A DNA stretch of 64,000 bases from Pararhizobium sp. IMCC21322 (GTDB taxonomy: Bacteria > Pseudomonadota > Alphaproteobacteria > Rhizobiales > GCA-2746425), in contig NZ_CP132335.1 of the NCBI RefSeq assembly GCF_030758295.1, positions 5,167,501-5,231,500 on the forward strand. Reading direction: 5' to 3'. The translations under genes and the position numbers were made by a program. The number at the start of each line of letters is the position of its first letter. Within the stretch, counting starts at the first letter, position 1. The notes below the pieces were generated by a model. It did no database searches. It saw nothing but the letters and a program-made list of their open reading frames with translations, and was not told the DNA's origin. Shown here one piece after another: positions 28,547 to 45,604 of the stretch.

Positions 28547-29467
28547 ATGGCTCTTTATGCAAATACTGCCTTGAAGGACCGCGTATCCGAAGCGCGTCAG
28601 GCCCGTTCTCGTGTAGCGGTCAAAAACCACGTTCACATTGTGGACAAGCTGATTGCCGAACGCGCAATCGGGCTGGCGTCCCATTGGTCCTGGCCCGTCA
28701 TCCGTCCCATGCTTTACCAGTTGCTGGGATACAGGCGTGCTGTCACCCTGTCAGATATTGTGGCTGACATGTCGGGCCCGGATGCCATGTCCTTCGTATC
28801 GACTATGCTCAATCTGCAACTTGATATTTCCGGCCTTGAGCGCATTCCAAAACAAGGCCCCTTCATTCTGGCAGCCAACCACCCGACGGGCATAGCCGAC
28901 GGAGTTGCCGTTTATGACCTGATCAAAGCCGTTCGATCCGACATTGCCATTTTCACCAACCGCGATGCCGTGCGTGTTGCCCGCCGGTTTGATGAAGTGC
29001 TGATCCCGGTTGAGTGGCGCGAGGAACATAAAAGCCGCGAAAAAACCAAGGAAACGCTGATCAGAACCGCTGAAGCGTTTGATGACGGCAAAGCCGTCGT
29101 GATTTTCCCCTCAGGCCGCATCGGCTATTGGGCCGATGAAAAGCTGAATGAACGCACCTGGCAGGCAACACTTGTGACATTGGCCAAACGTTACAAAGTG
29201 CCGATTGTTCCGGTCCATGTCCGCAGCCGCAATTCCGGTCTGTTCTATCTCTTCAGCCGCATCTCCAACGAGCTGAGAGACATGACCGTTTTCTACGAAT
29301 TGCTCAATAAATCCGGCACCGGTTTTGGCTTGAGCGTTGGAAAGCCAATCTCTCACGAAAGTCTGATTGGCGATGCAAACGAGTTGACGGCAGAGCTGCA
29401 GACCCACACCGTGGCCACACTGGCCCAGGACAGAAATGCCTCCTTCAAAAGCCGCGTCGACGGCTGA
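28547..29467 (+). CDS. Lysophospholipid acyltransferase family protein
   Basis: A 306-residue protein with a PlsC-type acyltransferase domain. The catalytic motif is NHPTGIADG (H112, D118), an HX5D spacing like that of the hemolysin/OlsB-type subfamily rather than the strict HX4D of PlsC. The second block FPSGRIGYW and the third VPIVPVHVRS are present. It probably acylates a lysolipid or amine at the inner membrane. GGGGG lies five bases before the ATG. Exact substrate unknown; ornithine-lipid or phospholipid remodelling are both possible. Confidence 0.85.
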   Translation: MALYANTALKDRVSEARQARSRVAVKNHVHIVDKLIAERAIGLASHWSWPVIRPMLYQLLGYRRAVTLSDIVADMSGPDAMSFVSTMLNLQLDISGLERIPKQGPFILAANHPTGIADGVAVYDLIKAVRSDIAIFTNRDAVRVARRFDEVLIPVEWREEHKSREKTKETLIRTAEAFDDGKAVVIFPSGRIGYWADEKLNERTWQATLVTLAKRYKVPIVPVHVRSRNSGLFYLFSRISNELRDMTVFYELLNKSGTGFGLSVGKPISHESLIGDANELTAELQTHTVATLAQDRNASFKSRVDG

Positions 29468-29593
29468 ATCCGGAGTTCAAACTCTGTTCATCAACGTGCC
29501 TGGCCGTGGCTGATTTCCATGCAAAAAGATTGATCGCCTTCAGTTCAAAGCCGTTATAGCAAATCCCCCACGGGTCCCAATGGAGATTTCACC

Positions 29594-30709
29594 TTGAAAG
29601 CCGATCTGTTTCTGATCAACGGACCCAAAAAAGCCAATGCCTTTCATGCGTCCGGAATCGATGATTTTGAGCTGAGTCCAAAGGGGCAAATCGAGATCGA
29701 CATGCTTGTCGCCTCGCCAGACTGGACGCTCTATGCGGTCGAACCCGCAAAGGGTAAGGCAATGTTTGTGGAGATGCCCGAAGGCAGCGACTTGTCCAAT
29801 TCCGTCTTTGTCTACCAGGACCAATATGATCAGGGATTGCGCGCCGCAATCCTTGACCTTGATACCTTTATCGAGGCCAGTCAGGCGATTGCACCGCCAA
29901 ACCATCTGTCGTTTCTGTTCTCAACCGGGCGCTGTGGCTCAACACTGGCAAGCCGCATCTTCACAAAATTACCGGATGTCTGGAGCCTGTCGGAGCCCGA
30001 TTATCTGACCAATATAGCCATGGCACGGCTGAAATACCCGCGCGCCGAGCTTGTGGCATTGGTCCGGGCAGCTACGCTTTGGACATGTCGCCCGCCGAAG
30101 GGCCAGGCGCCAACAACGATCGTCATAAAACCACGCAGTGAGGCGACGTTAATCGCCGAACTGTGCCAGGAGGCATTTCCGCACGCGCAGAATGTATTCC
30201 TTTATCGAAGCTTACTCGGCTGGGCAGATTCCATAGGGAAGCTTTCACAGCGGGCCATGGACCCGGCGCTTGTTTATGCCGAGACCGAGTTTTGGCGTGA
30301 CTGGTGGGATCATGTCATGGCGGGTCAGCCACTGACGACATTAGAAGACTATTTCCCTCCGGATCACGGGCCAATTCTGGCGTCAGAATTCTTTACTCTG
30401 GCATGGGATCTGCGAATAGAAGGCTATCTCAAGGCACTGCGGCGAGGCATGAACTTTACCGCAATTCACTATGCGGACCTCAATAAAAACAGAGAGCAAG
30501 AGACGGCGCGCCTTCTCCGCGGCTGCGGATTGTCCACTGACTATTTGAATTTGGCATTGGAAGCATTTGCCGTGGACAGCCACAAAGGAAGCGTCAGCGA
30601 AAATGAAACACCCGCCATGCCAATGCCAGCGAGACAAAGGGCGCGCGCCGCAGCCTTGTTGGCCCGAATGGGAAAGCGCGACTATGTAGAAGCCAGACTG
30701 CCAGATTAG
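29594..30709 (+). CDS. Sulfotransferase-like P-loop protein
   Basis: A 371-residue protein of uncertain function. A segment at about 106-122 (FLFSTGRCGSTLASRIF) matches the 5'-phosphosulfate-binding loop of PAPS-dependent sulfotransferases. A later VFLYRSLLGWADSIGKLS resembles the 3'-phosphate-binding block (RxxxxxxxS). The N-terminal 100 residues are not recognised. The start is a TTG with GGAG eight bases upstream; the next internal ATG is at 29701. It may act on a carbohydrate or lipid. The neighbouring acyltransferase, 126 bases upstream on the same strand, makes an envelope role thinkable but unproven. Confidence 0.65.
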   Translation: MKADLFLINGPKKANAFHASGIDDFELSPKGQIEIDMLVASPDWTLYAVEPAKGKAMFVEMPEGSDLSNSVFVYQDQYDQGLRAAILDLDTFIEASQAIAPPNHLSFLFSTGRCGSTLASRIFTKLPDVWSLSEPDYLTNIAMARLKYPRAELVALVRAATLWTCRPPKGQAPTTIVIKPRSEATLIAELCQEAFPHAQNVFLYRSLLGWADSIGKLSQRAMDPALVYAETEFWRDWWDHVMAGQPLTTLEDYFPPDHGPILASEFFTLAWDLRIEGYLKALRRGMNFTAIHYADLNKNREQETARLLRGCGLSTDYLNLALEAFAVDSHKGSVSENETPAMPMPARQRARAAALLARMGKRDYVEARLPD

Positions 30710-30846
30710 GGTATGATCAGGGTCTGAACCCAGCTGGGCGATAGTATAAATGCAGAAAAATACAGGAAACTGTTCGGCCAAGCCATATTGTGCCGATAAT
30801 GACTGTTGCTGGTGCAAAATAACTGAGCAGGAGACGTGCCACGGAC

Positions 30847-31587
30847 ATGTACAACCCAAAAGGAAACGGCAAGGAGAAAACAATACAATCTGTGCAGTTT
30901 GCAGAGGCAGAGCCACCAAGTCATTTGCGTGGGATAGTACATCGATTTTTAGAACTAAAGACTGGCGGCACGCTGTCGAATGATTATCGATTTCATGCAT
31001 TGCCGGATGCATGCACCTACATCGTCTTTGACCAATTGAATCCCAAAGTCGCTGGAGTTTCCAAATTGCGCGCCTCGTCCGAAGAGCTCAATTTGGGCAA
31101 GGCATTTCACTATGTGAACATTCGTTTTTTGCCTGGCGTCTGGCAAGGTGGCCGTAATGAGGCTGCTTACGGCATGGTGGAAACGGCCTATTCAGGCGAG
31201 CTGCCGCTGATCGAGATTAATCGTCAGCTTTCCAAACGGGATTTTATCGATCAGCAGTCGGTGTTGTCAGGGTTCGTAGAAATGCTGATTGATCGCAAGC
31301 AGGTCGTAGCGAACCCCGTGACTGAAAAAATATTTCAAAACCTCGACGAAATTCATACAGTTTCAGACATGGCGGCTGTTTCAGAACTGTCGACTCGCCA
31401 GTTGCAACGAACGCTCAAACGAACGACCGGGTTTGCTCCGCACGACTTTCTTAAAGTGCTGCGCCTGCAACAAACTCTGAACGGCAATGATGCATCTTCT
31501 TACGCCGACCAGTCGCATTTCATACATTCGTTTCGTAAAGCCACAGGCTACACACCGGGCAAATATTCTCGAAAGTTTGATGTCTGA
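30847..31587 (+). CDS. AraC family transcriptional regulator
   Basis: A 246-residue regulator. The C-terminal AraC/XylS domain (about 160-246) has two helix-turn-helix units, the second ending in DQSHFIHSFRKATGYTPGKYSRKF, the family signature. The N-terminal portion (about 15-150) includes LPDACTYIVFDQL and a VNIRFLPGVW segment typical of the AraC subfamily whose sensing domain resembles DUF6597. It is followed 69 bases later by a VOC gene on the same strand, which is a likely target, though no operator was identified. Confidence 0.88.
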   Translation: MYNPKGNGKEKTIQSVQFAEAEPPSHLRGIVHRFLELKTGGTLSNDYRFHALPDACTYIVFDQLNPKVAGVSKLRASSEELNLGKAFHYVNIRFLPGVWQGGRNEAAYGMVETAYSGELPLIEINRQLSKRDFIDQQSVLSGFVEMLIDRKQVVANPVTEKIFQNLDEIHTVSDMAAVSELSTRQLQRTLKRTTGFAPHDFLKVLRLQQTLNGNDASSYADQSHFIHSFRKATGYTPGKYSRKFDV

Positions 31588-31656
31588 TATATACAATACA
31601 CACCAACTTCGACTTGCTATCTGATTGTCATAATCGATAACAAACAGGAGTTGGAT

Positions 31657-32037
31657 ATGACAAAAATGAACGCAGTTGGATGGTTCGACATCTATGTAAG
31701 CGACCTGAAACGGGCAGTTGCTTTCTATGAAGCTGTCTTGGGGCAAAAACCGGAAGAAATGGCCGATCCAACAGGTCAGTCACAAATGATGAGTTTTCCT
31801 GCTGACATGAATTCATACGGAGCCGCCGGCGCTTTGACAAAGTCAAAACATGCATCCCCGGGGGTAGGCGGCACTGTCGTGTATTTTTCTGCAGAAGACT
31901 GTGCGGTTGAAGAATCACGCGTTGCCGATGCTGGCGGCAAAGTCGTCAGACCAAAATTCTCAATCGGTGAGTTTGGCTGGGTCACACTGTGTCAGGACAC
32001 CGAGGGCAACATGTTTGGTCTCAATTCCCTGAAATAG
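31657..32037 (+). CDS. VOC family protein
   Basis: A 126-residue glyoxalase/bleomycin-resistance-fold protein. It contains WFDIYVSDLKRAVAFYEAVLG, GGTVVYFSAEDCAVEESRVADAGG and FGWVTLCQDTEGNMFGLNS, the pattern of the 'glyoxalase-like, PhnB/YdeN' group often paired with AraC regulators. The ATG at 31657 has AGGAG six bases upstream; a TTG at 31651 is less likely. Two tandem-like half-domains are not both present, so it probably acts as a dimer. Substrate unknown. Confidence 0.88.
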   Translation: MTKMNAVGWFDIYVSDLKRAVAFYEAVLGQKPEEMADPTGQSQMMSFPADMNSYGAAGALTKSKHASPGVGGTVVYFSAEDCAVEESRVADAGGKVVRPKFSIGEFGWVTLCQDTEGNMFGLNSLK

Positions 32038-32093
32038 AGTTCCTGTAATCAACAATGAATGAATAGCGTCATGTCTGGCGTATAAACTGAACC

Positions 32094-32127
32094 CACGGGC
32101 CTGTCGAAAGGCTGCCCGTGTTTCGTT
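32094..32127 (+). terminator. Rho-independent terminator after the VOC gene
   Basis: CACGGGC (32094-32100) pairs with GCCCGTG (32114-32120) across a 13-base loop, followed by TTTCGTTTT. It marks the end of the AraC-VOC unit, just before the left border of the hydroxyproline-type island. Confidence 0.7.
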
Positions 32128-32183
32128 TTATCCTATTCAAGACCAATTTGGACCAGATTTGCATTTGGCTTATGCTGCGATCT

Positions 32184-32252
32184 TCAAACAATGACCCGGA
32201 TAAACAGGGTCAACCGCATCAGGCCGACGCGCCGGAACCGGGCGTAAAGAAA
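32184..32252 (-). pseudogene. C-terminal remnant of a membrane-protein gene homologous to 40067-40678
   Basis: On the minus strand 22 codons and a stop align without gaps to the C-terminal region of the intact gene at 40067-40678; 17 of 22 residues are identical (shared RRVGLMRLTLFI). At DNA level 53 of 59 bases match between 32194-32252 and 40113-40171, including a perfect 30-base block. Upstream of the fragment the similarity fades (LLQSCC versus LLRS), and no start or body of the gene is present. The remnant stops earlier than the intact protein. The rest of the 337-bp gap (32038-32374) holds the terminator above and nothing else recognised. Confidence 0.8.
32199..32228 (+). repeat. 30-bp direct repeat, left copy
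   Basis: Identical to 40118-40147 over 30 bases, in the same orientation, 7,919 bases apart. It lies inside the gene remnant at the left border of the catabolic island. The core begins GATAAACAGGGTCAACCGCA. Confidence 0.9.
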
Positions 32253-32374
32253 GCAGCATGATTGGAGCAGCCGATGTCCGCAAAGCGGGCTGAAGTGGAC
32301 AGGGCCACCGCGTGCGAAATTCGAATTTGTTGCGCCGGTCTCCGGTCAGACATTTTGACCATTCACTGTGGCGA

Positions 32375-34084
32375 TTAGACGTGCTCCGAAAGCCAATCTG
32401 GAAGGTCTTTTGTCGCATTACCACTCAGAGCAACACGGGCACAGTCTGACAGGCTGCCGAACCGAACACCGCGTCCGGTAAGTCCGGTGGCGTAATGTGA
32501 ATATTTCCCGGAATTGGTGAATAACGTCTTCGCCTTTGTTGGAAACAAAGGTTCGGTTATCGAACACCAGCAAATGTCCGGAAAGACCTGCACACCGGCA
32601 TTTTCCAGGCGTTGAATGATGCCTTCCGACCTTGCTTCAGCCAGTACATTGCGCCCTATAGTCACAATCGTATCTGTGTGTGGATCACAGTTTTGCCCGT
32701 CAAGAAGATCTGCAAAATTGCGACACTCTGCAAGTGAAGCATGGGGGCTTCCGATTGCCACCAGTTCCACTTTTTCGCCTGCCCGGTTGAAGCTCAACCA
32801 GACCTGCGCCAAATCTGCAGGTGAAATATCAAGGCGCTTTGCATTTTCAACAGCAGCAAGATGCCCCTCGGGGGTATGGCCGCGAACATGCAACATCGGT
32901 GCCGCAGAGGTTGTGCCAAAGGCCGCACACAAAGCTTTTAAATCGTCTTCGCTGGGGCGAGCCATTTCAAGACCGATCAGAACCGGGATTCGATTGGGTG
33001 ACAGCGTGCCAGCCAACCAACCCAGCATTGGCCAAAGGGCGTCGTCGTACGAACCCGGCAATTCAACTGCAATCTCACACTCCGGCAGGCGGTTTTTTGC
33101 CAAATATACGCCGGTCTTTGGCGCCCGCCCGGTCATGGCAATAAAAAGATCCAGATAATCTGGATGTTTCGCCGTTCGCGCACCAAGTACGGAATTTGCG
33201 TAGATGACAGCATTGGATTCTGACCAACCAATATCTTCACCTTCTGCCGGGGCGTCATCCAGCAAGTAAGGTGCGCAGGTGAATGTGGGGCGGCACCCCA
33301 TTTTGACGTAAGCATCTGCAAGACGGCTTGCCTTATTGCCAAATTCAGGCGCAAGTCCCTGGGATAGCCAGTTCTCACGATCCACAGAAATTGCGTTGAT
33401 TGTGGTCGGGATGCGTGCCTTTGCACCCAACTTTTGCATCTTTTCAGCAAAATCGAGATTTGCATCATGCGCCAGAATACACCCGTCAATATGCCCGCGC
33501 GACACATCGACAAAGCCTGACGCATTTTGCGCTGCGGCCATGAGGCAGAGAATTTCCATAGCAATTTGCGTGGCACGACCATCGCCGCCGTCCAGCATAC
33601 GTCGGTCAGCCTTGGATAGGTCCAGCATGTCTGCGGCGTTCGTTTTCAGACGTATCGATCTGTCATCAAATCGAAGTTCCGTCCCGTCTATGGCAGCGGC
33701 GTTTGCACCTGACAAAGCCTCAAAAACAGGCTTTGGAAGGCGCATGACAAGCACTGGGGAATCGAATAGTCGGCCTGCAATCATTGCACCGAGAGTGAGA
33801 ATGTTCTCTTCTTCGCAAAACACCAAAGCGGCAGGTGCATTGCCGTCGCGCGCCAGTTGAAGCAACACCCCGCTACCACTGCAAGATCCGCGCGATGTCG
33901 GCATGAGCACGATTTTTCCGGAAAGCGCTGCGCCATGATTGGAGTGATGGGTGTCGATTATGACGCCGGTATCAGGATCGACGCCACCCCAAAAACTCAG
34001 CCCTTCTTCACAGAAGACAATTTCGCCCTGCGCCTTTCCTGCTACAAGAAGCGTTCCGGCAGTTTCAGCGTTTTCGATTATCAT
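32375..34084 (-). CDS. Fused aconitase X (probable cis-3-hydroxy-L-proline dehydratase)
   Basis: A 569-residue fusion. Residues 1-135 correspond to the small swivel subunit (DUF126; GKIVLMPTSRGSCSGSGVLLQL) and the remainder to the large DUF521 subunit. Fused bacterial AcnX proteins have been characterised as cis-3-hydroxy-L-proline dehydratases that form delta-1-pyrroline-2-carboxylate; the archaeal split forms act on phosphomevalonate. Cysteines suited to iron-sulfur binding are C270 in TFTCAPYLL and C505/C507 in PDICWCSITEP. It is encoded three bases after gntR on the same strand. No pyrroline-2-carboxylate reductase gene is seen nearby, so that step would be encoded elsewhere. Substrate is inferred from family and neighbours. 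Confidence 0.85.
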   Translation of the reverse strand: MIIENAETAGTLLVAGKAQGEIVFCEEGLSFWGGVDPDTGVIIDTHHSNHGAALSGKIVLMPTSRGSCSGSGVLLQLARDGNAPAALVFCEEENILTLGAMIAGRLFDSPVLVMRLPKPVFEALSGANAAAIDGTELRFDDRSIRLKTNAADMLDLSKADRRMLDGGDGRATQIAMEILCLMAAAQNASGFVDVSRGHIDGCILAHDANLDFAEKMQKLGAKARIPTTINAISVDRENWLSQGLAPEFGNKASRLADAYVKMGCRPTFTCAPYLLDDAPAEGEDIGWSESNAVIYANSVLGARTAKHPDYLDLFIAMTGRAPKTGVYLAKNRLPECEIAVELPGSYDDALWPMLGWLAGTLSPNRIPVLIGLEMARPSEDDLKALCAAFGTTSAAPMLHVRGHTPEGHLAAVENAKRLDISPADLAQVWLSFNRAGEKVELVAIGSPHASLAECRNFADLLDGQNCDPHTDTIVTIGRNVLAEARSEGIIQRLENAGVQVFPDICWCSITEPLFPTKAKTLFTNSGKYSHYATGLTGRGVRFGSLSDCARVALSGNATKDLPDWLSEHV

Positions 34085-34086
34085 AT

Positions 34087-34791
34087 TTAGGCCGGAAGCG
34101 ACTTCGTGGAAATTTGGTGCTGCACCTCATCCCGTCTCGTTTGCAGATAACCCAGCAATGATGCTTTCACGTCTCTTATGTGAGCTTGCGTCAGTGATGC
34201 TGCCCGCTCAGTGTCTCCAGCTTCGCAGGCCAACAGGATGTCCTCGTGCTCTTGTGTTGCACGTTGCATTCCATCGGTCAGAGAGATCTGGGCACGTACA
34301 TAACGGTCCAGCCGGTCCAGAAGTCCGTTGATCACCTTTAAGTAATTGGGCGATTGGGCCGCCTCGTAAAGGCAACAGTGGAACTGTCGGTTGAGTTCGG
34401 TCCAGTCTTCCGGTTTTGTCGAACGTGAGAATTCAGCGTGATATTGTCGTGCCTGCAGTAAAGTGGCCTGGGTCATAATTGGCACTGCGCGCCGCATAGC
34501 GTCTGCTTCCACCAAGGTCCGCAGGTCAAAGATTTCGTCAAACTCTTCATTGGTTATTGCTGCGACAACGGCCCCTTTATAGCGGCGCGTTTCGACAAGA
34601 CCCAACTGGTGAAGGCGCGCTATCGCTTCGCGCACGGGAATGCGACTGGTGTTGAAGGCTTTCGCAATCTCTTCCTGCCGAAGCGGTGCTCCCACCTGCA
34701 GGGTTCCCTTGACAATCGCCTGACGCAAAGACTCAAATACAATTTCAGTAGCCGACTTGGTTTGTGAGACATCGACTGCGCTGAAATTCAT
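34087..34791 (-). CDS. GntR family regulator, FadR/FCD type
   Basis: A 234-residue repressor-type protein. The winged-helix domain lies at about 14-78 (LRQEEIAKAFNTSRIPVREAIARLHQLGLVETRRYKGAVV). The C-terminal all-helical FCD ligand domain (about 85-220) carries the metal/ligand-binding residues (FDLRTLVEADAM, LNRQFHCCLYEAA, EHEDILLACEAGD, LTQAHIRDV). It is divergent from the ABC transporter operon and co-directional with aconitase X. It probably senses the imported hydroxyproline or an intermediate and controls both units. Confidence 0.92.
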   Translation of the reverse strand: MNFSAVDVSQTKSATEIVFESLRQAIVKGTLQVGAPLRQEEIAKAFNTSRIPVREAIARLHQLGLVETRRYKGAVVAAITNEEFDEIFDLRTLVEADAMRRAVPIMTQATLLQARQYHAEFSRSTKPEDWTELNRQFHCCLYEAAQSPNYLKVINGLLDRLDRYVRAQISLTDGMQRATQEHEDILLACEAGDTERAASLTQAHIRDVKASLLGYLQTRRDEVQHQISTKSLPA

Positions 34792-34865
34792 GATCTTTCT
34801 CCTGCTCCAGCCTGGATTCTGGTCGCCCTACCTATAGGGCTTCGAATTCTGGAACACCACAATTA

Positions 34866-34902
34866 GAATATTGTAGACATTATATTGTATCCAAAGTAGC
34901 AT
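34866..34902. promoter_or_regulatory. Divergent promoter and candidate GntR operator
   Basis: TTGTAGACAT (34871-34880) fits the FadR-subfamily half-palindrome pattern GT-n-n-AC. It overlaps a rightward -35 TAGACA (34874-34879) that is 17 bases from a -10 TAGCAT (34897-34902) for the ABC operon. On the minus strand a perfect TATAAT lies at 34879-34884 for gntR. The octamer ATATTGTA is repeated at 34868-34875 and 34882-34889, which could mean two operator sites one and a third helical turns apart. Confidence 0.5.
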
Positions 34903-34933
34903 TTAATGGCACAATTCTCAACAAGGGTTCGAT

Positions 34934-35746
34934 ATGAAAAAGACTATCCTGACCGCAGTAACTGCGGCCGCACTTCTTGCCACATCCTTCTCTGTGTCGG
35001 CATGGGCCGACACGCTTGACGACGTTGTTGATCGCGGAACACTGCGTTGCGGTGTGGTTCTCGATTTCCCACCAATAGGCTATCGCGACGCAAACAACGA
35101 GCCAGCAGGGTTCGACGTGGAGTACTGCGCTGACCTGGCTGCGGCATTGGAAGTCGAGCATGAAATTCTGCCTCTTACCTGGTCTGAGCGTTTGCCCGTC
35201 ATTGTGACTGGCCGCGCGGACGTCGTATTTGGCGGCACCTCAGACAGCCTTGCCCGTGCGCGAACAGTCGGGTTTTCGATCCCTTACGCAATTTACTATG
35301 CGCAAGGCATTGTGAATGCGGAAAGCGGGATCGAAACCATTGAAGACATGCGCGGCAAGCGCGTTGCAGCAGCTGTAGGTACCGTCCCAGAACAAGAATG
35401 GTTGAAAATCGCCGCCGAGTGGGGCGAAGAAGATAACTATCAGGGGTATCAGTCCGAGAACGAGGTTTTTCTGGCTGTTACTCAGGGAAAAGCCGACATT
35501 GGCATAACGACCAACACAGCTGTGCTTCCCATTACTCAGCAGTATGACAACATCCTTGCCGGTCCCCGTATGCCTTGGACCACGGATTACACCTCCGTTG
35601 TTGGCAAGCGCCAAGACGTAACCTGGTTGAACTATCTCAACCTGTTCGTCACCCATCAGGTTCGCTCCGGCCGTTATCAAGAGCTATGGGGCAAATACGT
35701 TGGTGGCGAAGCACCCGAACTTCGCATTCCAGGCGTCATGTACTGA
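34934..35746 (+). CDS. Amino-acid ABC transporter substrate-binding protein
   Basis: A periplasmic solute-binding protein of 270 residues in the polar amino-acid family (SBP_bac_3). The signal peptide is about 1-25 (hydrophobic core, cut after SVSAWA). The mature protein begins DTLDDVVDRGTLRCGVVLDF and contains the family pattern GFDVEYCADLAAAL and the arginine-bearing SDSLARARTVGFS loop that binds the ligand carboxylate. It is the first gene of a four-gene importer operon. Ligand probably a hydroxyproline or related imino acid, judged from the linked enzymes. Confidence 0.92.
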   Translation: MKKTILTAVTAAALLATSFSVSAWADTLDDVVDRGTLRCGVVLDFPPIGYRDANNEPAGFDVEYCADLAAALEVEHEILPLTWSERLPVIVTGRADVVFGGTSDSLARARTVGFSIPYAIYYAQGIVNAESGIETIEDMRGKRVAAAVGTVPEQEWLKIAAEWGEEDNYQGYQSENEVFLAVTQGKADIGITTNTAVLPITQQYDNILAGPRMPWTTDYTSVVGKRQDVTWLNYLNLFVTHQVRSGRYQELWGKYVGGEAPELRIPGVMY

Positions 35747-35802
35747 TGAAATTTCCTCGCCCCCTCATCGGGGCGAGGAACCGACTGATCGGGGCGTGAA
35801 AT

Positions 35803-36465
35803 ATGTTTGACTATAATTTCCATTGGCGGCCTGTTTTCAGAAGCATTCCCGATCTTCTTGAAGCGGCAACCGTCACCCTGCAGGTGGCGGTGATCTCAAT
35901 GGTGATCGGCATACTTATTGGCCTGGTCCTTGCGTTGACCCGTATGCACCTGAGCGGACCTGCAAGATGGATCGCCTCAACCTGGGTTGAAGTAGCGCGC
36001 AATACGCCCGCTTTGTTTCAACTGTTTTTCTTCGGATTCGGGCTCGGTGCTGTGGGTGTGCATTTGTCGCCTTACGTCATAGTCGTCGCTGCCCTCAGCT
36101 TTAATTGCGCTGGTTATCTGGCGGAGAATTTTCGTGGTGGATTCCAGGCGATCCCGGAAACACAGATTCGCGCTGCGCGCTCTCTCGGCATGACAGCCTG
36201 GCAAAGTTATACGAGGATCATTATCCCGCAGGTGTTTCGCATCGTATATCATCCGATAACCAATCAGATGGTTTGGGCGGTGCTGATGTCATCGCTTGGC
36301 ATGTTGGTGGGGTTTCGGGAGCTGTCTGGCGAGACGCAGGCGCTTGCCAGCCGCACCTATCGTATTTTTGAGTATTTCGCCGTCACAGCCGTGATCTATT
36401 ATATGGTTGTGAAAATCATACTGCTTGCGTCGCGCCTGCTGGCCACGCGCCTTTTCAGGTATTGA
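35803..36465 (+). CDS. Amino-acid ABC transporter permease 1
   Basis: A polar-amino-acid (HisM/GlnP-type) inner-membrane permease of 220 residues with about five membrane helices. The cytoplasmic EAA loop that docks the ATPase is visible as ENFRGGFQAIPETQIRAARSLGMTAWQSYTRIIIPQ. It lies 56 bases after the binding-protein gene and 10 bases before the second permease. The two permeases would form a heterodimeric channel. Confidence 0.93.
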   Translation: MFDYNFHWRPVFRSIPDLLEAATVTLQVAVISMVIGILIGLVLALTRMHLSGPARWIASTWVEVARNTPALFQLFFFGFGLGAVGVHLSPYVIVVAALSFNCAGYLAENFRGGFQAIPETQIRAARSLGMTAWQSYTRIIIPQVFRIVYHPITNQMVWAVLMSSLGMLVGFRELSGETQALASRTYRIFEYFAVTAVIYYMVVKIILLASRLLATRLFRY

Positions 36466-36475
36466 GGGGCACCAG

Positions 36476-37138
36476 ATGGAACCGACAATAAGTTTTTTTT
36501 CGGGCTTTCAGCTTTCCGATCTCTGGTACCTTGCCGAGGCTGCCTGGCGCACCTTGTTGATTTCTGCCTGCTCAATAGCCATCGGCACCATACTTGGGAT
36601 CATATTTGGCTGGATGCTTTATGAAGGCAAGCTGGCTGCCACGTTGACGCTGAACCCGATCCTGGACATCTTTCGTTCAGTCCCTCTGATTATTCAGCTT
36701 GTTCTGTTCTATAATTTCGCGCCAATTATCGGGTTGAATCTTGATCCCTTCTTGTCCGGTGTCGTAATCCTGTCGATCTATTGCGCATCACTGGTGGCAA
36801 ACGTTGCACGCGGTGGAATGGAAGCGGTTGGCAAACCGATGCGCCGCGCATCGCGTTCGCTTGGGATGAATTACTGGCAGGATTTGCGCCATGTTGTTTT
36901 GCCAATCGGTGGGCCAGCGGTGTTTCCTTCCTGGGTAGGCGTAGCACTTGGTGTGATGAAAGACAGCGCTCTGGTGTCGGTCCTGGGCTACATCGAATTA
37001 CTCAAGGCCAGTCAGATCCTCGTCACGCGCACACAAGAGCCTTTATTGATCCTGACAATTGCCGGCGCTTTCTACTTTGCACTTTCCTATCCAATCTCGC
37101 GTTATGCCGCAGCGCTTGAGCAACGGTGGTCCACATGA
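36476..37138 (+). CDS. Amino-acid ABC transporter permease 2
   Basis: The second HisM/GlnP-type permease, 220 residues. The EAA loop reads ARGGMEAVGKPMRRASRSLGMNYWQDLRHVVLPIG. The ATG at 36476 has GAGGGG seven bases upstream and is preferred over a frame open to 36425 that overlaps permease 1. Its stop overlaps the ATPase start (ATGA at 37135-37138), implying translational coupling. Confidence 0.93.
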   Translation: MEPTISFFSGFQLSDLWYLAEAAWRTLLISACSIAIGTILGIIFGWMLYEGKLAATLTLNPILDIFRSVPLIIQLVLFYNFAPIIGLNLDPFLSGVVILSIYCASLVANVARGGMEAVGKPMRRASRSLGMNYWQDLRHVVLPIGGPAVFPSWVGVALGVMKDSALVSVLGYIELLKASQILVTRTQEPLLILTIAGAFYFALSYPISRYAAALEQRWST

Positions 37139-37857
37139 TCGAAATCCGTGGGGTAGAAAAGTTCTTCGGAGCCTTACAGGTTCTTAAGGGGATCGATTTG
37201 GATGTGCGAAAGGGCGAGGTCCTGTCGATCATCGGGGCGTCAGGTTCTGGAAAATCGACGCTGCTTTATTGCATCAATGGACTTGAACCGATCCAAAAGG
37301 GCTCCATCAAGGTCGATGGCACCGATGTGCACGCCAAGAGTACAAATATAAACCACCTGCGCCAGAAGATGGGCATGGTTTTTCAGCAATGGAACTCTTT
37401 CCCGCATCTGACCGCCCTGGAAAACGTGGCGCTTGCGCCCAAAATCGTGAAGGGAATGTCGAAAGCCCAAGCGCGTGACATTGCCGCCAAACAATTGGAG
37501 CATGTGGGCTTGGGCGATAAGTTGGATGTCTACCCCAGCGCGCTTTCTGGGGGCCAGCAACAGCGGCTTGCCATCGCGCGCGCGCTGGCGATGGAACCGA
37601 CTTATATGCTGTTTGACGAAGCAACCTCGGCGCTGGACCCTGAATTGGTTGGCGAGGTGCTGGATGCCATGCGACTGCTGGCGCAAGAGGGAATGACGAT
37701 GATCTGCGTAACCCATGAAATGGGCTTTGCGCGCGATGTATCTGATCGGGTCGCCTTTGTGCATGAAGGTATTATCGAAGAAATCGACACCCCCGCCGAA
37801 ATTTTTGGCACGCCTAAATCCGATCTTCTCAAAAAATTCCTTTCGAATATCCGATGA
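37135..37857 (+). CDS. Amino-acid ABC transporter ATP-binding protein
   Basis: The ATPase subunit of the importer, 240 residues. Motifs: Walker A GASGSGKST, Q-loop around MVFQQWNSFPHLT, signature LSGGQQQRLAIARAL, Walker B YMLFDEATSALDPE and the switch His in CVTHEMGFA. The start is the ATG at 37135 overlapping the permease 2 stop; a GTG at 37126 would add three residues. It completes the importer operon and is followed 85 bases later by the DapA-like gene. Confidence 0.95.
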   Translation: MIEIRGVEKFFGALQVLKGIDLDVRKGEVLSIIGASGSGKSTLLYCINGLEPIQKGSIKVDGTDVHAKSTNINHLRQKMGMVFQQWNSFPHLTALENVALAPKIVKGMSKAQARDIAAKQLEHVGLGDKLDVYPSALSGGQQQRLAIARALAMEPTYMLFDEATSALDPELVGEVLDAMRLLAQEGMTMICVTHEMGFARDVSDRVAFVHEGIIEEIDTPAEIFGTPKSDLLKKFLSNIR

Positions 37858-37942
37858 TTTTTGGAAACCCACACAGACATCGCGGTCTAAGCTCCGATCC
37901 GCGCCCCGATCCACGATGTGAATTAACTCAAGGAACATAGTA

Positions 37943-38902
37943 ATGACTGTAGATGCATTCGCAGGCTGCATGCCTGCCCTCATGACCCCCTGCACTGCAG
38001 ACAGAAGTCCCGACTTCGATGGTTTGACCAAGACAGGCCAAGCACTGATCGAGGCGGGCATGTCTGCGGTGATTTATGCTGGCTCCATGGGCGACTGGCC
38101 GCTTCTGACTGACGCCGAGCGGATGCAAGGGGTCGATCGACTGGTAAAGGCCGGTGTGCCCGTTGTTGTTGGCACGGGCGCCGTCAATACGAAAGCCGCA
38201 GTGGCGCATGCCGCGCATGCCGCCGAAGTTGGCGCGCGCGGGCTGATGGTTATTCCGCGCGTGCTGTCGCGCGGATCTTCTGCGGCCGCACAGCGCGCGC
38301 ATTTCAAAGCGATCCTTGAGGCGGCCCCGGATCTTCCCAGCGTCATCTACAATAGTCCATATTACGGCTTTGCAACGAAGGCCGATCTGTTTTTTGACTT
38401 GCGCAAAGACCATCCAAATCTGGTGGGCTTCAAAGAATTCGGCGGCAAAGCGGATTTGCGATATGCCGCCGAGAACATCACATCACGGGATTCAAATGTA
38501 ACGTTGATGGTTGGCGTGGATACCGCCGTATTCCACGGGTACGTCAATTGCGGGGCGACGGGGGCGATTACAGGAATTGGCAACGCGTTACCCAAACAAA
38601 TCTTGCTTCTGTGCGCGCTGTGCCAAAAAGCGGCTGCAGGGCACGTGGAAGCCCGCATACGGGCGATGGAGCTGGAAGAAGCCTTGGGTGTTCTGTCCAG
38701 TTTCGATGAAGGGCCGGATCTTGTTCTGTTCTACAAACACCTGATGGTCTTGAACGGCCACGACGAGTATCGCCTACACTTCAATGAAACAGATGCGCTT
38801 TCGGACGCGCAGCGCAACTATATTGAGCAGCAATACGCCCTGTTTAACACCTGGTACGCCGCGTGGTCTGCGCAAGGTGGTATCATCGCGAAATGCTCCT
38901 GA
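37943..38902 (+). CDS. DapA-superfamily lyase/deaminase
   Basis: A 319-residue (beta/alpha)8-barrel enzyme of the dihydrodipicolinate synthase/N-acetylneuraminate lyase superfamily. The Schiff-base lysine is K164 in LVGFKEFGG and the catalytic tyrosine Y136 in VIYNSPYYG. The usual GSTGE loop reads GSMGDW, so it is not the lysine-pathway DapA. Linked to hydroxyproline genes, a candidate role is 1-pyrroline-4-hydroxy-2-carboxylate deaminase, which yields 2-oxoglutarate semialdehyde in trans-4-hydroxyproline breakdown. That assignment is from context. AAGGA lies nine bases before the ATG. Confidence 0.85.
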   Translation: MTVDAFAGCMPALMTPCTADRSPDFDGLTKTGQALIEAGMSAVIYAGSMGDWPLLTDAERMQGVDRLVKAGVPVVVGTGAVNTKAAVAHAAHAAEVGARGLMVIPRVLSRGSSAAAQRAHFKAILEAAPDLPSVIYNSPYYGFATKADLFFDLRKDHPNLVGFKEFGGKADLRYAAENITSRDSNVTLMVGVDTAVFHGYVNCGATGAITGIGNALPKQILLLCALCQKAAAGHVEARIRAMELEEALGVLSSFDEGPDLVLFYKHLMVLNGHDEYRLHFNETDALSDAQRNYIEQQYALFNTWYAAWSAQGGIIAKCS

Positions 38903-38951
38903 TCTCGGGCCAGAACGTTTGATCAGACAGAAGGCTGGGTCGGGGTGAAAC

Positions 38952-39977
38952 ATGCGTAGCTCTAAGACAATTCATGTAATTTCCGCCCATGCGGAAGGCG
39001 AGGTCGGCGATGTCATTGTCGGCGGCGTGTCCCCGCCATCCGGCGACACGATCTGGGATCAACGCAGCTTCATTGCGTCAGACCAGAGCCTTAGGAATTT
39101 CGTATTGAATGAACCACGAGGGGGCGTGTTTCGGCACGTCAACTTGCTGGTTCCGCCAAAGCACCCCGATGCCGACGCCGCCTTCATCATCATGGAGCCA
39201 GAAGACAATCCGCCGATGTCCGGGTCAAATTCGATTTGCGTTTCAACTGTATTGCTGGATAGCGGAATTATCCCGATGCAGGAACCTGTGACGGAGATGG
39301 TCCTGGAAGCGCCCGGCGGTCTGGTGCGGGTCAGGGCCGACTGCAGTAATGGTAAGGCGACGCGCATAACGGTTCAGAATGTGGCCAGTTTTGCGGATAA
39401 AATTGCAGTGCCGCTGGAAGTGGAAGGGATCGGAACTCTAACGGTTGATACGGCCTATGGTGGCGACAGCTTTGTTGTCGTCGATGCCGAAAGCCTGAAC
39501 TTTGAAATCGTTGAAAGCGAAGCTGCAGACATTGCCCGCCTCGGCGTCAGGATCACCGATGCTGCGAACCAGCAATTGGGGTTTACGCACCCCGAGAACC
39601 CCGACTGGAATCATATCTCATTCTGCGCTTTTTGTGGCCCATTGGAGTCCGTGCCGACAGGTGTAGCCAGCCGATCTGCTGTCGCAATCAAGCCCGGCAA
39701 GGTGGATAGATCGCCGACCGGAACCGCAGTTTCGGCACGGATGGCATTGATGGCAAGCAAGGGCCAAATGACCATCGGTGAGGAATTTGTGGCGACCTCA
39801 ATCATCGGTTCTACTTTCACGGGGAAAATAGAAGCTGCCACAAGCGTCGGCGACCGGGCAGCAATTATCCCGCAGATCAGCGGACGCGGCTGGATCACAG
39901 GCATCCACCAACACATGCTGGATCCAGACGATCCATGGCCTCAGGGCTACAAGCTTAGCGATACATGGGGGGCATAA
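38952..39977 (+). CDS. Proline racemase superfamily protein with Ser/Thr active-site pair
   Basis: A 341-residue member of the proline racemase/hydroxyproline epimerase superfamily. The first catalytic-Cys block, usually MCGH, reads MSGSNSI (S90, S92). The second block, DRSP(C)GTG in racemases, reads [10 protein letters not shown] (T256). Thr at the second place is known from trans-3-hydroxy-L-proline dehydratases, but those keep Cys at the first. With neither Cys present, racemisation by the two-base thiol mechanism is unlikely. The protein may be a dehydratase or act on another substrate. It ends the operon that begins with the ABC importer, 49 bases after the DapA-like gene. Confidence 0.88.
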
Positions 39978-40066
39978 CATCGTTGTTACCGATTGATCGC
40001 GATACGTTTGTCAGTAAGCAGTTTCAGTGAAGTAGCGGTGGCGGAACCTGCATCAGGCGAGGGCCG

Positions 40067-40678
40067 CTAAACAATGTTCCAGAACACATAGCCAAACCAG
40101 GCGTAGAACAACACCCAGATAAACAGGGTCAACCGCATCAGGCCGACACGGCGGAGCCTGGTGTAAAGAAAACTGCGCAATAGGCCCGACAGGACCAGTA
40201 CCACCACAATTCTTGAAAAGCGGGCAATGGTCGCCGGTTCCAGAAACGCCAGCAATGGCGCAATGCCGGCTTCAAAGGCGGTTGCAGAAAATATTTTGAA
40301 CGGAACCCCGGTAAAGCCGCCAAACAGCAACGCGCCCATAGGTTCCGCTGCCATATCAGTGGACGCATAGCGCAACAATTCCTCGGTAATACCGGGAACT
40401 GTCAGAATGAAGGACCGGACAAACTCCGGGTTCACCTGCGACAATTTATAAAGAACAATGCCGCCCAGCATTGTGCCGATCAAAGCCGTAAAGGCAGGGA
40501 CCATGGCCTTCAGCACGCCGAAGCGCATCACAGCCAGGCTGATCAGCACATCCACCATGATGAAAAACCAGAGAGCTTCCGCAAATCCCCAGATGAAGCC
40601 CACGAGTGACCACACCAGCAGCCAGCTCCAGGTCAGGGCATTCCTGGGAGACATGGGACCGAGCAGCAGCCCAACCAT
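40067..40678 (-). CDS. Uncharacterised multi-pass membrane protein
   Basis: A 203-residue hydrophobic protein with about five predicted membrane helices (for example near 14-34, 58-80 and 178-200). Segments such as LLFGGFTGVPFKIFSATAFEAGI vaguely recall DedA/VTT-domain proteins, but I do not recognise the family firmly. It lies 15 bases downstream of sdhB on the same strand and may be part of the sdh transcript. Its 3' end carries the right copy of the 30-bp repeat that borders the catabolic island; a homologous C-terminal remnant lies at the other border. Confidence 0.8.
   Translation of the reverse strand: MVGLLLGPMSPRNALTWSWLLVWSLVGFIWGFAEALWFFIMVDVLISLAVMRFGVLKAMVPAFTALIGTMLGGIVLYKLSQVNPEFVRSFILTVPGITEELLRYASTDMAAEPMGALLFGGFTGVPFKIFSATAFEAGIAPLLAFLEPATIARFSRIVVVLVLSGLLRSFLYTRLRRVGLMRLTLFIWVLFYAWFGYVFWNIV
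40118..40147 (+). repeat. 30-bp direct repeat, right copy
   Basis: Identical to 32199-32228. Here the repeat is inside the coding sequence of the membrane-protein gene, spanning codons for RRVGLMRLTLFI. The gene remains intact through it. Confidence 0.9.
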
Positions 40679-40693
40679 GACAAGACCTACCCT

Positions 40694-41470
40694 TTAGACG
40701 CGTCTTTCAACCATCATCTTCTTGATTTCTGCAATGGCCTTGGCCGGGTTGAGACCCTTCGGACATGCTTGCGCGCAATTCATGATGGTGTGACAGCGAT
40801 ACAGCCGGAACGGATCTTCCAGATCGTCAAGCCGTTCACCGGTCGCCTCATCCCGGCTGTCAATCAGCCAGCGATAGGATTGCAACAGAACTGCGGGGCC
40901 CAGATAGCGATCACCATTCCACCAATAGCTTGGGCAGGATGTTGAGCAACAGGCGCACAAAATACACTCATACAGCCCGTCCAGTTTTTCACGGTCCGCT
41001 TCGCTCTGCTTCCACTCCCGTTGCGGGCTTGGCGTTGTTGTTTTGAGCCACGGCTCAATCGAGCGATGCTGGGCATAGAAATTCGTCAGATCCGGCACCA
41101 GATCCTTGACCACCGGCAGATGCGGCAGGGGATAGATTTTAACATCCCCGTCAATCTCATCCATGCCCTTGGTGCAGGCCAGCGTATTGGTTCCATCGAT
41201 ATTCATGGCACAGGACCCGCAAATGCCCTCGCGGCAGGACCGTCGGAAGGTCAGGGTCGGATCAATATTACTCTTGATCCAGATCAGCGCATCCAGAACC
41301 ATCGGTCCGCAATCATCCAGATCCACATGATAAGTGTCGACCTGCGGATTGCCGTCCCCGTCAGGATTCCAGCGATAGATGCGAAATTCACGCAAATTGC
41401 TGCCAGATGGTTTTTCCCAGGCTTTACCCTGCTTCATCTGTGAATTTTTAGGCAGTGTCAGTTGAACCAT
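40694..41470 (-). CDS. sdhB: Succinate dehydrogenase iron-sulfur subunit
   Basis: The electron-transfer subunit of complex II, 258 residues. The [2Fe-2S] ligands lie in [21 protein letters not shown]. The [4Fe-4S] motif is [17 protein letters not shown] and the [3Fe-4S] motif [20 protein letters not shown]. All clusters are intact. It follows sdhA by 29 bases. Confidence 0.97.
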
Positions 41471-41499
41471 GATTGAAAGGCTCTCTCAGCAAAAAGAAA

Positions 41500-43314
41500 T
41501 TAATAAACGCGGGTTTTGGGGGCGATCTTCTCCAACGGTATTTCGTTGGACAACGGGTCAGCATGAACCGGACGCGAATCCAGCGTTACTTTCCCCTCTT
41601 CAGACACCCAGGACAGCGAATGCTTGCGCCAGTTCTCATCATCCCGATCCGGGCAGTCCTCACGCGCATGAGCGCCGCGGCTTTCTGTCCGCGCTTCGGC
41701 GGAGTAAACTGTGGTGATGGCATTGGCCATCAGGTTTTCATACTCGATGGTTTCCACAAGATCCGTATTCCAGATCATGGACCGGTCGGTCACCTGAATG
41801 TCGTCTCGCGCATCCCAGATTTCCGACACGCGCTTACAGCCATTCTTCAAGGTTTCGCCGGTCCGGAACACGGCAGCATCCTCCTGCATGGCTTTCTGCA
41901 TTTTCAGGCGCAGATCAGCGGTGCGGGTGCTGCCATTGGCATTGCGCAATTTATCAAACCGCTGCAGAGCCTTGTCGACGGACGCCTGATTGAGGTTCTC
42001 ATTGCTGGATTTCGGGTCAACAATTTCACCGGCGCGAATAGAGGCCGCCCGCCCAAACACAACCAGATCGATCAGAGAATTGGACCCAAGACGATTGGCA
42101 CCATGCACAGAGGCACAGGCAGCTTCGCCAACGGCCATCAGCCCCGGCACCTTGGTGTCAGGATTGCCGTCTTTGAGGGTCATCACTTCACCCCAGTAAT
42201 TGGTCGGGATGCCACCCATGTTATAATGCACGGTCGGCAGAACCGGAATCGGCTCCTTGGTCAGATCAACACCGGCGAAAATCCGTGCTGATTCTGAAAT
42301 ACCCGGCAGACGCTCTGCCAAAGTTTCCGGCGGCAGATGATCCAGATGCAAATGGATGTGATCCTTGTCATTGCCTACGCCGCGCCCGTCGCGAATTTCC
42401 ATGGTCATGCAGCGGGACACAACATCACGCGAGGCCAGATCCTTATAGGTCGGCGCATAGCGCTCCATAAAGCGCTCACCTTCGGAGTTGGTCAGATAAC
42501 CACCCTCGCCCCGCGCGCCTTCGGTAATCAGGCAGCCCGCACCGTAAATACCGGTTGGATGGAACTGAACGAACTCCATATCCTGCAAAGGCAGTCCCGC
42601 ACGTGTGACCATCGCATTGCCATCGCCGGTACAGGTATGGGCGGATGTGGCAGAGAAATAGGCCCGGCCATAACCGCCGGTTGCCAACACCACCATTTTG
42701 GACTTGAAGGCATGCATCGTACCGTCATCCAGCTTCCAGGCAAGAATACCCTGACAGGTGCCTTCTTCCGACATGATCAGATCAATTGCCAGATATTCGA
42801 TAAAGAATTCGGCGTCATGTTTCAAAGACTGGCCATACAGCGTGTGCAGGATGGCATGGCCGGTGCGGTCTGCTGCGGCACAGGTGCGCTGCACAGGAGG
42901 GCCTTCACCATATTCCGTCGTGTGGCCGCCAAATGGACGCTGGTAAATTTCGCCTTCCTTGGTCCGCGAGAAGGGCACACCATAATGTTCCAGTTCATAA
43001 ACGGCCTTCGGCGCCTCACGCACCATGTATTCAATGGCATCATGATCGCCAAGCCAGTCTGACCCCTTGACCGTGTCATACATGTGCCACTGCCAGGAAT
43101 CCGGTCCCATATTGCTGAGGCTGGCCGCAATGCCACCCTGCGCTGCAACTGTGTGCGAGCGCGTGGGAAATACTTTTGTTATACAGGCGGTGCGCAGGCC
43201 TTGCTCCGCCATTCCCAATGTGGCGCGCAGACCAGATCCGCCAGCGCCAACAACAACGACATCGAATGTGTGTTCGGTAACGTCATAGGCCTTACCATTT
43301 GCAGCAGTCACCAC
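41500..43314 (-). CDS. sdhA: Succinate dehydrogenase flavoprotein subunit
   Basis: The catalytic subunit of complex II, 604 residues. The FAD-binding motif is [20 protein letters not shown]. The histidine that covalently binds FAD lies in [10 protein letters not shown]. The substrate and capping-domain motifs [21 protein letters not shown] and [15 protein letters not shown] are present. It lies between sdhD (three bases upstream) and sdhB. Confidence 0.97.
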
Positions 43315-43317
43315 GGA

Positions 43318-43698
43318 CTAACCTCCAAAGCTCAATTTCAGAATGGAAAACACCGACACAAGTGCGATTGCCGCCGTGAAGAAAGTGTTCCCGAGTACGA
43401 GCACAATTTTCATGCCCTCTGAGTGAATATAGTCCTCAATCACAACCTGCATACCCAAACGCATATGCCAAGTGACCGACAGAACCGCTGCGATCAGGAA
43501 AATTGCACCAAGCGGCGAACCTGCCGCTGCAACAAATTCCGCGTGGGTAGCGCCAGACAACATGATGACAAGAATCACAAAGCCGATAACCAGCGGCACA
43601 TTGGCAACGGCTGTCAGCCTTTGTTGCCAGAAATGCGATGTGCCATCCTTGGCTGATCCAAGATGGCGAATGGTTTTCAAAGGTGTCCGCATTGACAT
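43318..43698 (-). CDS. sdhD: Succinate dehydrogenase membrane anchor subunit
   Basis: The small hydrophobic anchor of complex II, 126 residues with three membrane helices. The heme/quinone region is WHMRLGMQVVIEDYIHSEGMK, where the His is a heme b ligand candidate. The N-terminal TSHFWQQRLTAVANVPL is typical of the alphaproteobacterial SdhD. It lies 12 bases after sdhC. Confidence 0.93.
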   Translation of the reverse strand: MSMRTPLKTIRHLGSAKDGTSHFWQQRLTAVANVPLVIGFVILVIMLSGATHAEFVAAAGSPLGAIFLIAAVLSVTWHMRLGMQVVIEDYIHSEGMKIVLVLGNTFFTAAIALVSVFSILKLSFGG

Positions 43699-43710
43699 GC
43701 TTATTTGCTC

Positions 43711-44127
43711 CTATCGCACCATATAGCCGATGATCCAGACAAGAACTGTCAGAATCACCGAGCCGGCGAGTGTGGCCTTCGCCATTGTCTCACGCACAAC
43801 TTCGCCGAAGCCATGGCCCGTGTCCCAGACAAAATGGCGCAGGCCGCCCAACATGTGATGCAGCAAGGCCCAGGTGAAGCCAAACAGGATCACCTGTCCG
43901 AACCAGGATCCGAAAAAGCCCTGAACCCAGTTGAAATAGTCAGGACCGCTTGCAGCCGCAAACAACCACCAGGCCAGCAAAAACATGCCGAAATACAGGC
44001 CAACGCCGGTAATGCGGTGGACGATGGACATCACCATCGTGAACAGTGGCCGGTAAACCTGAATATGCGGAGAAAGGGGTCGATCAGCGCCAATGCGCGG
44101 ATGAGGGGTCGGTGTCGTCTCAGACAT
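43711..44127 (-). CDS. sdhC: Succinate dehydrogenase cytochrome b556 subunit
   Basis: The large membrane anchor, 138 residues, three helices. The signature RPLSPHIQVYRPLFTMVMSIVHRITG carries the quinone-site Ser/Arg and HRITG motif; the heme-binding His is in HHMLGGLRHFVWDTGH. The start at 44127 (MSETTPTPHP) is preferred over a frame open to 44178. First gene of sdhCDAB. Confidence 0.95.
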   Translation of the reverse strand: MSETTPTPHPRIGADRPLSPHIQVYRPLFTMVMSIVHRITGVGLYFGMFLLAWWLFAAASGPDYFNWVQGFFGSWFGQVILFGFTWALLHHMLGGLRHFVWDTGHGFGEVVRETMAKATLAGSVILTVLVWIIGYMVR

Positions 44128-44223
44128 GAAATGCGCCTTTATTTGCAGCAAAGCCAATCGGCGAGACAGATTTTGCAAGGAGTCTGCCAGAAAATTAACC
44201 AGATATTGCCATCAAGTGCTCTG

Positions 44224-44252
44224 TTCTTAGAAAACTTAAGCAGCCACGTCAA
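44224..44252 (-). promoter_or_regulatory. Candidate sdh operon promoter
   Basis: On the minus strand TTGACG (44247-44252) is 17 bases from TAAGAA (44224-44229), about 95 bases upstream of sdhC. The -35 is a strong match, the -10 only fair. Confidence 0.35.
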
Positions 44253-44294
44253 AGTAACCTTTTGACCCATGGGCACTTTATCGCAAATGAAAGC

Positions 44295-45344: not shown

Positions 45345-45354
45345 AACAATTCTC

Positions 45355-45558
45355 CTAATAGTCAGACAAAGTTATATCGTCAGAATAGGTGCCTTCGGTC
45401 TCTTTCCAGACCGCCTGTCCGCACATCATGGAACCACTTTCAGGATTATGCGACAGCGTCGGGCTGCCATGCAGGTTCCAACCGGCACTTAAGGCCTTGG
45501 AGACGCGTTTGCAAAATGACGAATCATCAGGGCCTGTAAGATATCGATAGAGTTTCAT
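45355..45558 (-). CDS. DUF1737 protein
   Basis: A small 67-residue protein of the DUF1737 family, recognised by MKLYRYLTGPDDSSFCKRV, the GWNLHGSP block and MCGQAVWKE. Function unknown; such domains are often found as short stand-alone proteins. The ATG has GGGA upstream. It lies 10 bases before the TraB/GumN gene and 46 bases after the CitE-like gene, so the three may be one transcript. Confidence 0.9.
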   Translation of the reverse strand: MKLYRYLTGPDDSSFCKRVSKALSAGWNLHGSPTLSHNPESGSMMCGQAVWKETEGTYSDDITLSDY

Positions 45559-45604
45559 ATTGTTTCCCGTTTCATACTGTTTCCCGGTTCATGGTGTGTC
45601 CTGC

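Follow-up and report, generated by a model that had tools for sequence, protein, structure and literature searches.

A predicted 3-hydroxyproline gene block of Pararhizobium sp. IMCC21322 probably changed its address within the lineage, beside a gene whose displaced 3' end persists

How did a block of eight genes with no integrase among them come to lie between two copies of one and the same gene end? The question is raised by a locus of the alphaproteobacterium Pararhizobium sp. IMCC21322, analyzed here within a window of 64,000 nucleotides (RefSeq assembly GCF_030758295.1, contig NZ_CP132335.1, forward-strand positions 5,167,501 to 5,231,500), to which all coordinates refer unless another sequence is named. 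The eight genes adjoin the 3' end of a gene for a putative membrane protein, and a second copy of that 3' end stands on the far side of the block. The genus is represented in our collection by five genomes, including the window's own (G000), and these are also the whole family there. Comparison with one of them, the sister genome G003, suggests that an old resident block probably changed its address within the lineage, integrating beside the membrane-protein gene without an integrase.

As the initial annotation had noticed, the two ends of the locus share 30 identical bases in the same orientation (Table 1). They form the sole exact direct repeat of at least 18 bases in the window; the number of 30-mer repeats expected from base composition is 2e-9. 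Around this core, gap-free homology covers 32194-32257 and 40113-40176 with 56 of 64 bases matching, and the earlier count of 53 matches in 59 for 32194-32252 is correct. Given eight random mismatches in 64 bases, a clean run of 30 is mildly unusual (p=0.036). The right copy does form part of the membrane-protein gene's intact 3' end, and the protein identity of 17 of 22 first given for the left remnant fits the reading frame (CFLYARFRRVGLMRLTLFIRVI versus SFLYTRLRRVGLMRLTLFIWVL). A DNA search of the whole G000 genome (5,252,332 bases, one contig) with 40000-40700 as query returned the right copy and the left copy and no other place. The core also contains an imperfect inverted repeat of 7 bases around a 6-base center (40128-40147 and 32209-32228), within coding sequence. 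It resembles a recombinase core site or a weak terminator, structures that are frequent by chance (15 terminator-like sites observed versus 10.8 in shuffles, standard deviation 3.5).

The site is empty in G003. Window positions 29566-32200 and 40068-45691 are contiguous there (locus L008), and the AraC and VOC genes stand directly beside the membrane-protein gene with the eight genes absent, which is the arrangement that the initial annotation had proposed to look for in relatives. Positions 32038-32193, which flank the left copy, align with the G003 intergenic stretch through the stop-codon region of the gene. Compared with both G003 and the right copy, the left copy has lost 36 in-frame bases between 32193 and 32194, the match resuming at 32194, so that the remnant reads LTLFIRV-IV-stop versus LTLFIWVLFYAWFGYVFWNIV-stop. 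The stop codon is TGA in the left copy (32184-32186), TAG in the right copy and TAA in G003. Because its stop-codon region and downstream flank align with the empty-site allele, the left copy represents the former 3' end, now displaced, and the working gene ends today in the right copy. This supports the original proposal of an insertion at the gene's 3' end that left the displaced end behind. The remnant is a real gene end, as proposed, although it is longer than the 22 codons first assigned to it and reaches the old stop codon.

The block is present in G003 at a second address. Window 32369-39999 aligns end to end, at 89.7%, with G003 contig C17 (L017:10226-17867), and the shared segment is limited about 6 bases beyond the stop codon of the aconitase X gene and about 45 bases after that of the dehydratase gene. 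Its neighbors in G003 are a MerR regulator next to a flavin oxidoreductase on one side and an AraC-type regulator on the other. The left flank matches G000, G001, G002 and G004 mostly within its ABC-ATPase gene; the right flank has a 67% match in G002 only and none in G000, G001 and G004. Only short imperfect repeats were found around the G003 block, and the core repeat was not among them. The interval in which the block sits differs almost wholly from its G000 counterpart, with shared flanks (G003:C17 123106-143989; G000:C1 413378-443622). This second variable interval measures 30 kb in G000 and 21 kb in G003, with one 62-base DNA match inside.

Divergence at four-fold sites places the block with the core genome. 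Between G000 and G003, 301 of 1226 four-fold sites differ in the block (0.246) and 412 of 1757 in eleven flanking core genes (0.234; Fisher p=0.51). For the sulfotransferase-like, AraC and VOC genes the count is 77 of 330 (0.233). Since the block lies elsewhere in G003 and has diverged as the core genes have, it most simply predates the split and moved; on this simplest reading, the common ancestor already had it, and one lineage or both later moved it to a new address. In G+C content the block does not depart from the range seen in its flanks, so that the G+C difference for which the initial annotation had suggested looking was not found, and a foreign composition was rejected on this measure. 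The block that had been said to have arrived is therefore better read as a relocated resident operon, given the second G003 locus, the core-like divergence and the unchanged G+C content, and it is probably not a foreign arrival.

Table 1. Features of the block, its junctions and the adjoining genes
Feature	Position	Strand	Basis
VOC-family gene, left neighbor at the empty site; orthologue adjoins the membrane-protein gene in G003	31651..32037	+	protein family match, G003 alignment
Left copy: displaced old membrane-protein 3' end, extending about 35 codons upstream of the old stop and lacking 36 bases in frame	32184..32257	-	alignment to right copy and G003 L008
30-base identical core, left copy	32199..32228		sequence identity
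Left junction, 111 bases	32258..32368		single occurrence in genome
Aconitase X, LhpI	32375..34084	-	NF051439 864.3 bits (cut-off 700); PDB 7cnp; PF04412
GntR/FCD transcriptional regulator	34087..34791	-	family match
ABC solute-binding protein, family 3	34934..35746	+	PF00497; below every NCBIfam cut-off shown
ABC permease 1	35803..36465	+	family match
ABC permease 2	36476..37138	+	TIGR01726 above cut-off; PF00528
ABC ATPase	37126..37857	+	PF00005
Dihydrodipicolinate-synthase (DHDPS) family enzyme	37943..38902	+	PF00701; no NCBIfam equivalog above cut-off
Proline-racemase-family trans-3-hydroxyproline dehydratase	38952..39977	+	NF047722 627.6 bits (cut-off 550); relative of PDB 4k7g
Right junction; up to about 40023 matches the G003 block flank	39978..40066		alignment
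Intact membrane-protein gene, 203 amino acids, 3' end contains the right copy	40067..40678	-	downstream of succinate dehydrogenase genes
30-base identical core, right copy	40118..40147		sequence identity

From the empty site, the displaced 3' end, the second address and the core-like divergence, all observed here, we infer the mechanism of the move. The block would have landed between the convergent VOC and membrane-protein genes, next to those that encode succinate dehydrogenase. The incoming DNA, from the same genome or from a related strain, would have had about 110 bases from the 3' end of the membrane-protein gene attached to the block. Entry may have been through a single crossover of the RecA type, the molecule being transiently circular, or through homology-facilitated illegitimate recombination (HFIR). 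In either case the gene on the right would have come out intact, while the 3' end on the left would have become redundant and then decayed. The duplicated stretch would have run from about 40068 to 40176, some 109 bases before the 36-base loss. A duplicated target end adjoining a nonhomologous joint is present, as in the scars of single crossovers and HFIR. More broadly, a conserved hydroxyproline operon may be a unit that changes address between sister species without a recombinase of its own, with cuts close to its outer stop codons; this generalization is tentative and rather doubtful.

Allele relationships among the copies bear on the source of the incoming DNA. Among the 64 homologous sites, the left and right copies share four states against G003, G002 and G004. 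The left copy shares three with G002 (against the right copy, G003 and G004), one with G003 (against the right copy, G002 and G004) and one with G004 (against the right copy and G003, G002 having a third base), and the right copy shares one with G002 against the left copy, G003 and G004. Informative sites are interleaved, so that neither copy looks like a mosaic. In the best tree the left and right copies pair (57% bootstrap), and none of the three alternative trees is rejected. The left branch (0.102 substitutions per site) is about three times as long as the right (0.035), that of G003 being 0.040, which fits decay of a useless copy. The tree and branch lengths suit a duplication that came after the species split, the useless copy then changing faster, and two strains are not needed.

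Several points weigh against the proposed relocation or its route. Neither a circular intermediate nor a donor locus with the block beside a membrane-protein 3' end was seen; the G003 copy is no such donor and carries no detectable piece of the membrane-protein gene. The direction of the move is not fixed, and the searches made found no remnant of the block in the corresponding G000 interval. The 111-base left junction has no other match in G000 and none in the flanks of the G003 block, the right junction, the stretch of the membrane-protein and sdh genes, or L008. Import of the block into each of the two lineages from a third, equally distant source would also be compatible with the present data. 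The pairing of the left and right copies in the tree is weak. Moreover, the stop codon of the right copy and the next three bases (TAG CGG) equal those of G002 and not those of G003 or the left copy. Over the 330 gene bases that adjoin the insertion, 32 of 322 positions differ between G000 and G003, versus 168 of 2870 in the following 2.9 kb, on one genome per species (Fisher p=0.007 with the boundary chosen post hoc; block shuffle over prefixes, p=0.017). The last two observations are mild hints of a donor from another strain.

The same 330-base stretch shows a slight rise between G003 and G002 (50/330 versus 354/2870, p=0.16) and between G000 and G002 (50/322 versus 354/2870, p=0.11). The excess may mark a short tract donated by another strain or may reflect, in part, a faster-evolving gene end, and it bears on the donor rather than on the insertion. 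Two strains with the core as their crossover site, as first proposed, are thus not required, the tree pairing the two copies, although the divergence excess and TAG CGG lean that way; the evidence is weak in both directions. Between about 40023 and the stop codon of the membrane-protein gene, the right junction matches none of the sequences tested.

Other histories could produce two copies of a gene end around a block. The block and its repeats may be ancestral at this site, G003 having lost the block by recombination between the repeats and holding a second copy through another event. A crossover within the repeats would yield exactly the G003 structure, and a tree joining the right copy with G003 is not rejected (approximately unbiased test, p-AU 0.36, with too few replicates according to the program's own warning). 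Nevertheless, the best tree pairs left with right, the lack of a gene fragment at the G003 block means that it is not a reinserted excised circle, and G002 has neither the block nor a membrane-protein gene-end scrap in the 400 bases tested past the acyltransferase gene; loss at an ancestral site is unlikely. An integrase could instead have acted in trans on the remains of an element with its att site in the gene's 3' end and no integrase of its own, in the manner of a cis-mobilizable element (CIME), which is an att-flanked element moved in trans. The geometry fits, one side of the block having a restored gene 3' end and the other the displaced one, with an identical core, and tyrosine recombinase core sites often carry inverted repeats such as the one in this core. 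However, that inverted repeat is part of a coding sequence and repeats of its kind often arise by chance, homology runs unevenly past the core, no such repeat or gene fragment surrounds the G003 block, and G000 contains only the two copies. Furthermore, the window contains no tyrosine integrase (PF00589), the nine matches in G000 all lying below 1.16 Mb (the window is at 5.17-5.23 Mb). None of the block genes is an integrase, all eight being otherwise assigned (serine recombinases were not searched for genome-wide). Mobilization by an integrase seems rather improbable. No integrase-bearing related element was seen at the site in G002, G003 or G004, the G001 contig being cut there in this set of five genomes.

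A staggered double-strand break in the gene's 3' end, filled in while the block was captured, would give a target duplication of about 110 bases and would explain paired copies of one allele without a donor, in keeping with the left-right pairing of the best tree. Capture of an intact 7.6-kb operon cut near its own gene ends is less natural than recombination, however, and we know of no precedent for break capture with so long a duplication; such an origin appears quite improbable. The left copy, being a gene fragment, might also remain from a tandem duplication of the whole membrane-protein gene, most of one copy having been lost. Against this, homology to that gene ends at 32257, with none detectable beyond (extension test, p=0.19), the protein has exactly one match in each of the five genomes, and the G003 site has no second copy. 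An ancestral pair of full-length genes, which the initial annotation had named as an argument for gene loss, is disfavored on these grounds, and tandem duplication is very improbable.

Relocation without an integrase has parallels in print. The initial annotation considered the lack of an integrase unusual, but integrase-free hotspots are common: in the available part of a 2017 study (PMC5635113), 27% of hotspots lacked the integrases and transposases looked for, and double homologous recombination at the flanks was the model. The interval from the acyltransferase gene (28547-29467) to the membrane-protein gene looks like an integrase-free hotspot, with conserved core flanks, differing content and no mobility genes. 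It resembles the hotspots of that study, as far as its available part describes them, in its conserved flanks, genome-specific content and lack of detected mobility genes. It differs from them in that double recombination is expected to be scar-free, whereas one side here keeps a displaced gene end, and in that the block occupies two loci in two sister genomes.

A closer parallel to the scar comes from Escherichia coli, in which circular DNA lacking part of the homology integrated by RecA-dependent single crossover, with 109-950 bases of the target end duplicated in 14 sequenced clones (Amarir-Bouhram et al. 2011, PMC3240628, available text). The same text states that classical HFIR usually deletes recipient DNA. 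As in those clones, part of the target end is duplicated here and no integrase is seen; unlike them, which derived from laboratory plasmid DNA in E. coli, the present case is natural, 7.6 kb long and deduced from sequence. HFIR has also been put forward for displaced genes in type VI secretion system (T6SS) loci of Vibrio (Kirchberger et al. 2017, PMC5361080, available text). As described there for Rhs and T6SS effector-immunity loci, a module is inserted at the 3' region of a gene and the old 3' part is left downstream. In those loci the new module takes the place of the effector and its immunity gene is kept, whereas here the gene still encodes the same kind of product and only a scrap was displaced.

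Events of this kind are already known, and a case that unites an empty site, a scar and a second address is useful rather than new in kind. Judging by titles, a literature search on operon relocation returned nothing on the point, and a search for hydroxyproline genomic islands returned no papers. One pair of sister genomes shows the empty site, the scar and the second operon address together, and the divergence clock suggests the same age for the operon and the species split. An island-like layout, with direct repeats at a gene 3' end, need not imply a foreign mobile element. In addition, the locus is one at which an integrase-free insertion could be dated and tested in strains. Should many operons of these bacteria change address without a recombinase of their own, relocation driven by host recombination alone would be a regular route of genome change.

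The combination of a GntR regulator, an ABC importer, a DHDPS-family enzyme and two dehydratases makes the block look like a unit for 3-hydroxyproline uptake and breakdown, with substrate and regulation predicted from gene families. The motifs PPMSGSNS and DRSPTGT of the proline-racemase-family dehydratase place Ser and Thr at what we take to be the positions of the two Cys of proline racemases. A Ser/Thr pair has been described for a crystallized trans-3-hydroxyproline dehydratase (PMC4113996, available text). L-Hydroxyproline gene clusters of this sort have also been described (Watanabe et al. 2016, PMC5144071), and the cluster in the available part of that paper likewise brings together aconitase X LhpI, a proline-racemase-family dehydratase, an ABC transporter and a regulator. 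Unlike that cluster, the block has no recognized pyrroline-2-carboxylate reductase among its eight genes, the search being limited to the block and not extended to the rest of the genome.

Aconitase X has a match at an E value of 1e-50 in three of the five genus genomes, including G000; G001 and G002 have none, and G004 has a 36% homologue only. At 1e-120 or better, matches occur in 6 of 385 genomes of the class, G000 included. Of the other five, four were inspected with their flanks (G486 was left out), and only G177, a distant alphaproteobacterium, has all eight genes together. In G177 (C1:3460000-3479500, L052, 3023-10574), the dehydratases have swapped block ends relative to window 32375-39977, the proline-racemase-type enzyme being divergent on the left and aconitase X last.

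The gap between the acyltransferase and membrane-protein genes has four contents in the four genomes where it is readable, the G001 contig ending inside the membrane-protein gene. In G004, only 36 bases separate the two stop codons. The G002 gap contains a TetR regulator, an HlyD-family protein, a MacB/FtsX-type permease, an ABC ATPase and one protein without a Pfam match. The first four (L009, 7518-11721) resemble an efflux operon. G003 has a small AAA-domain gene, a weakly sulfotransferase-like gene, AraC and VOC, and the window has the sulfotransferase-like gene, AraC, VOC and the eight-gene block. No scraps of the membrane-protein 3' end were found at the other gap borders in G002, G003 and two window intervals (four tests, p 0.32-0.96), and the window contains no tRNA. 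The sulfotransferase-like gene (29594-30709) has a sub-threshold Pfam sulfotransferase match and no NCBIfam family, and belongs to an accessory unit common to the window and G003.

The membrane-protein gene directly follows the gene for the iron-sulfur subunit of succinate dehydrogenase. Its product, for which no Pfam or NCBIfam match was found, is a putative membrane protein. In G146 and G044, the relative of this protein is not beside sdh within the fetched 17 kb. In G016, a genome of another family, a 37% relative likewise follows sdhB.

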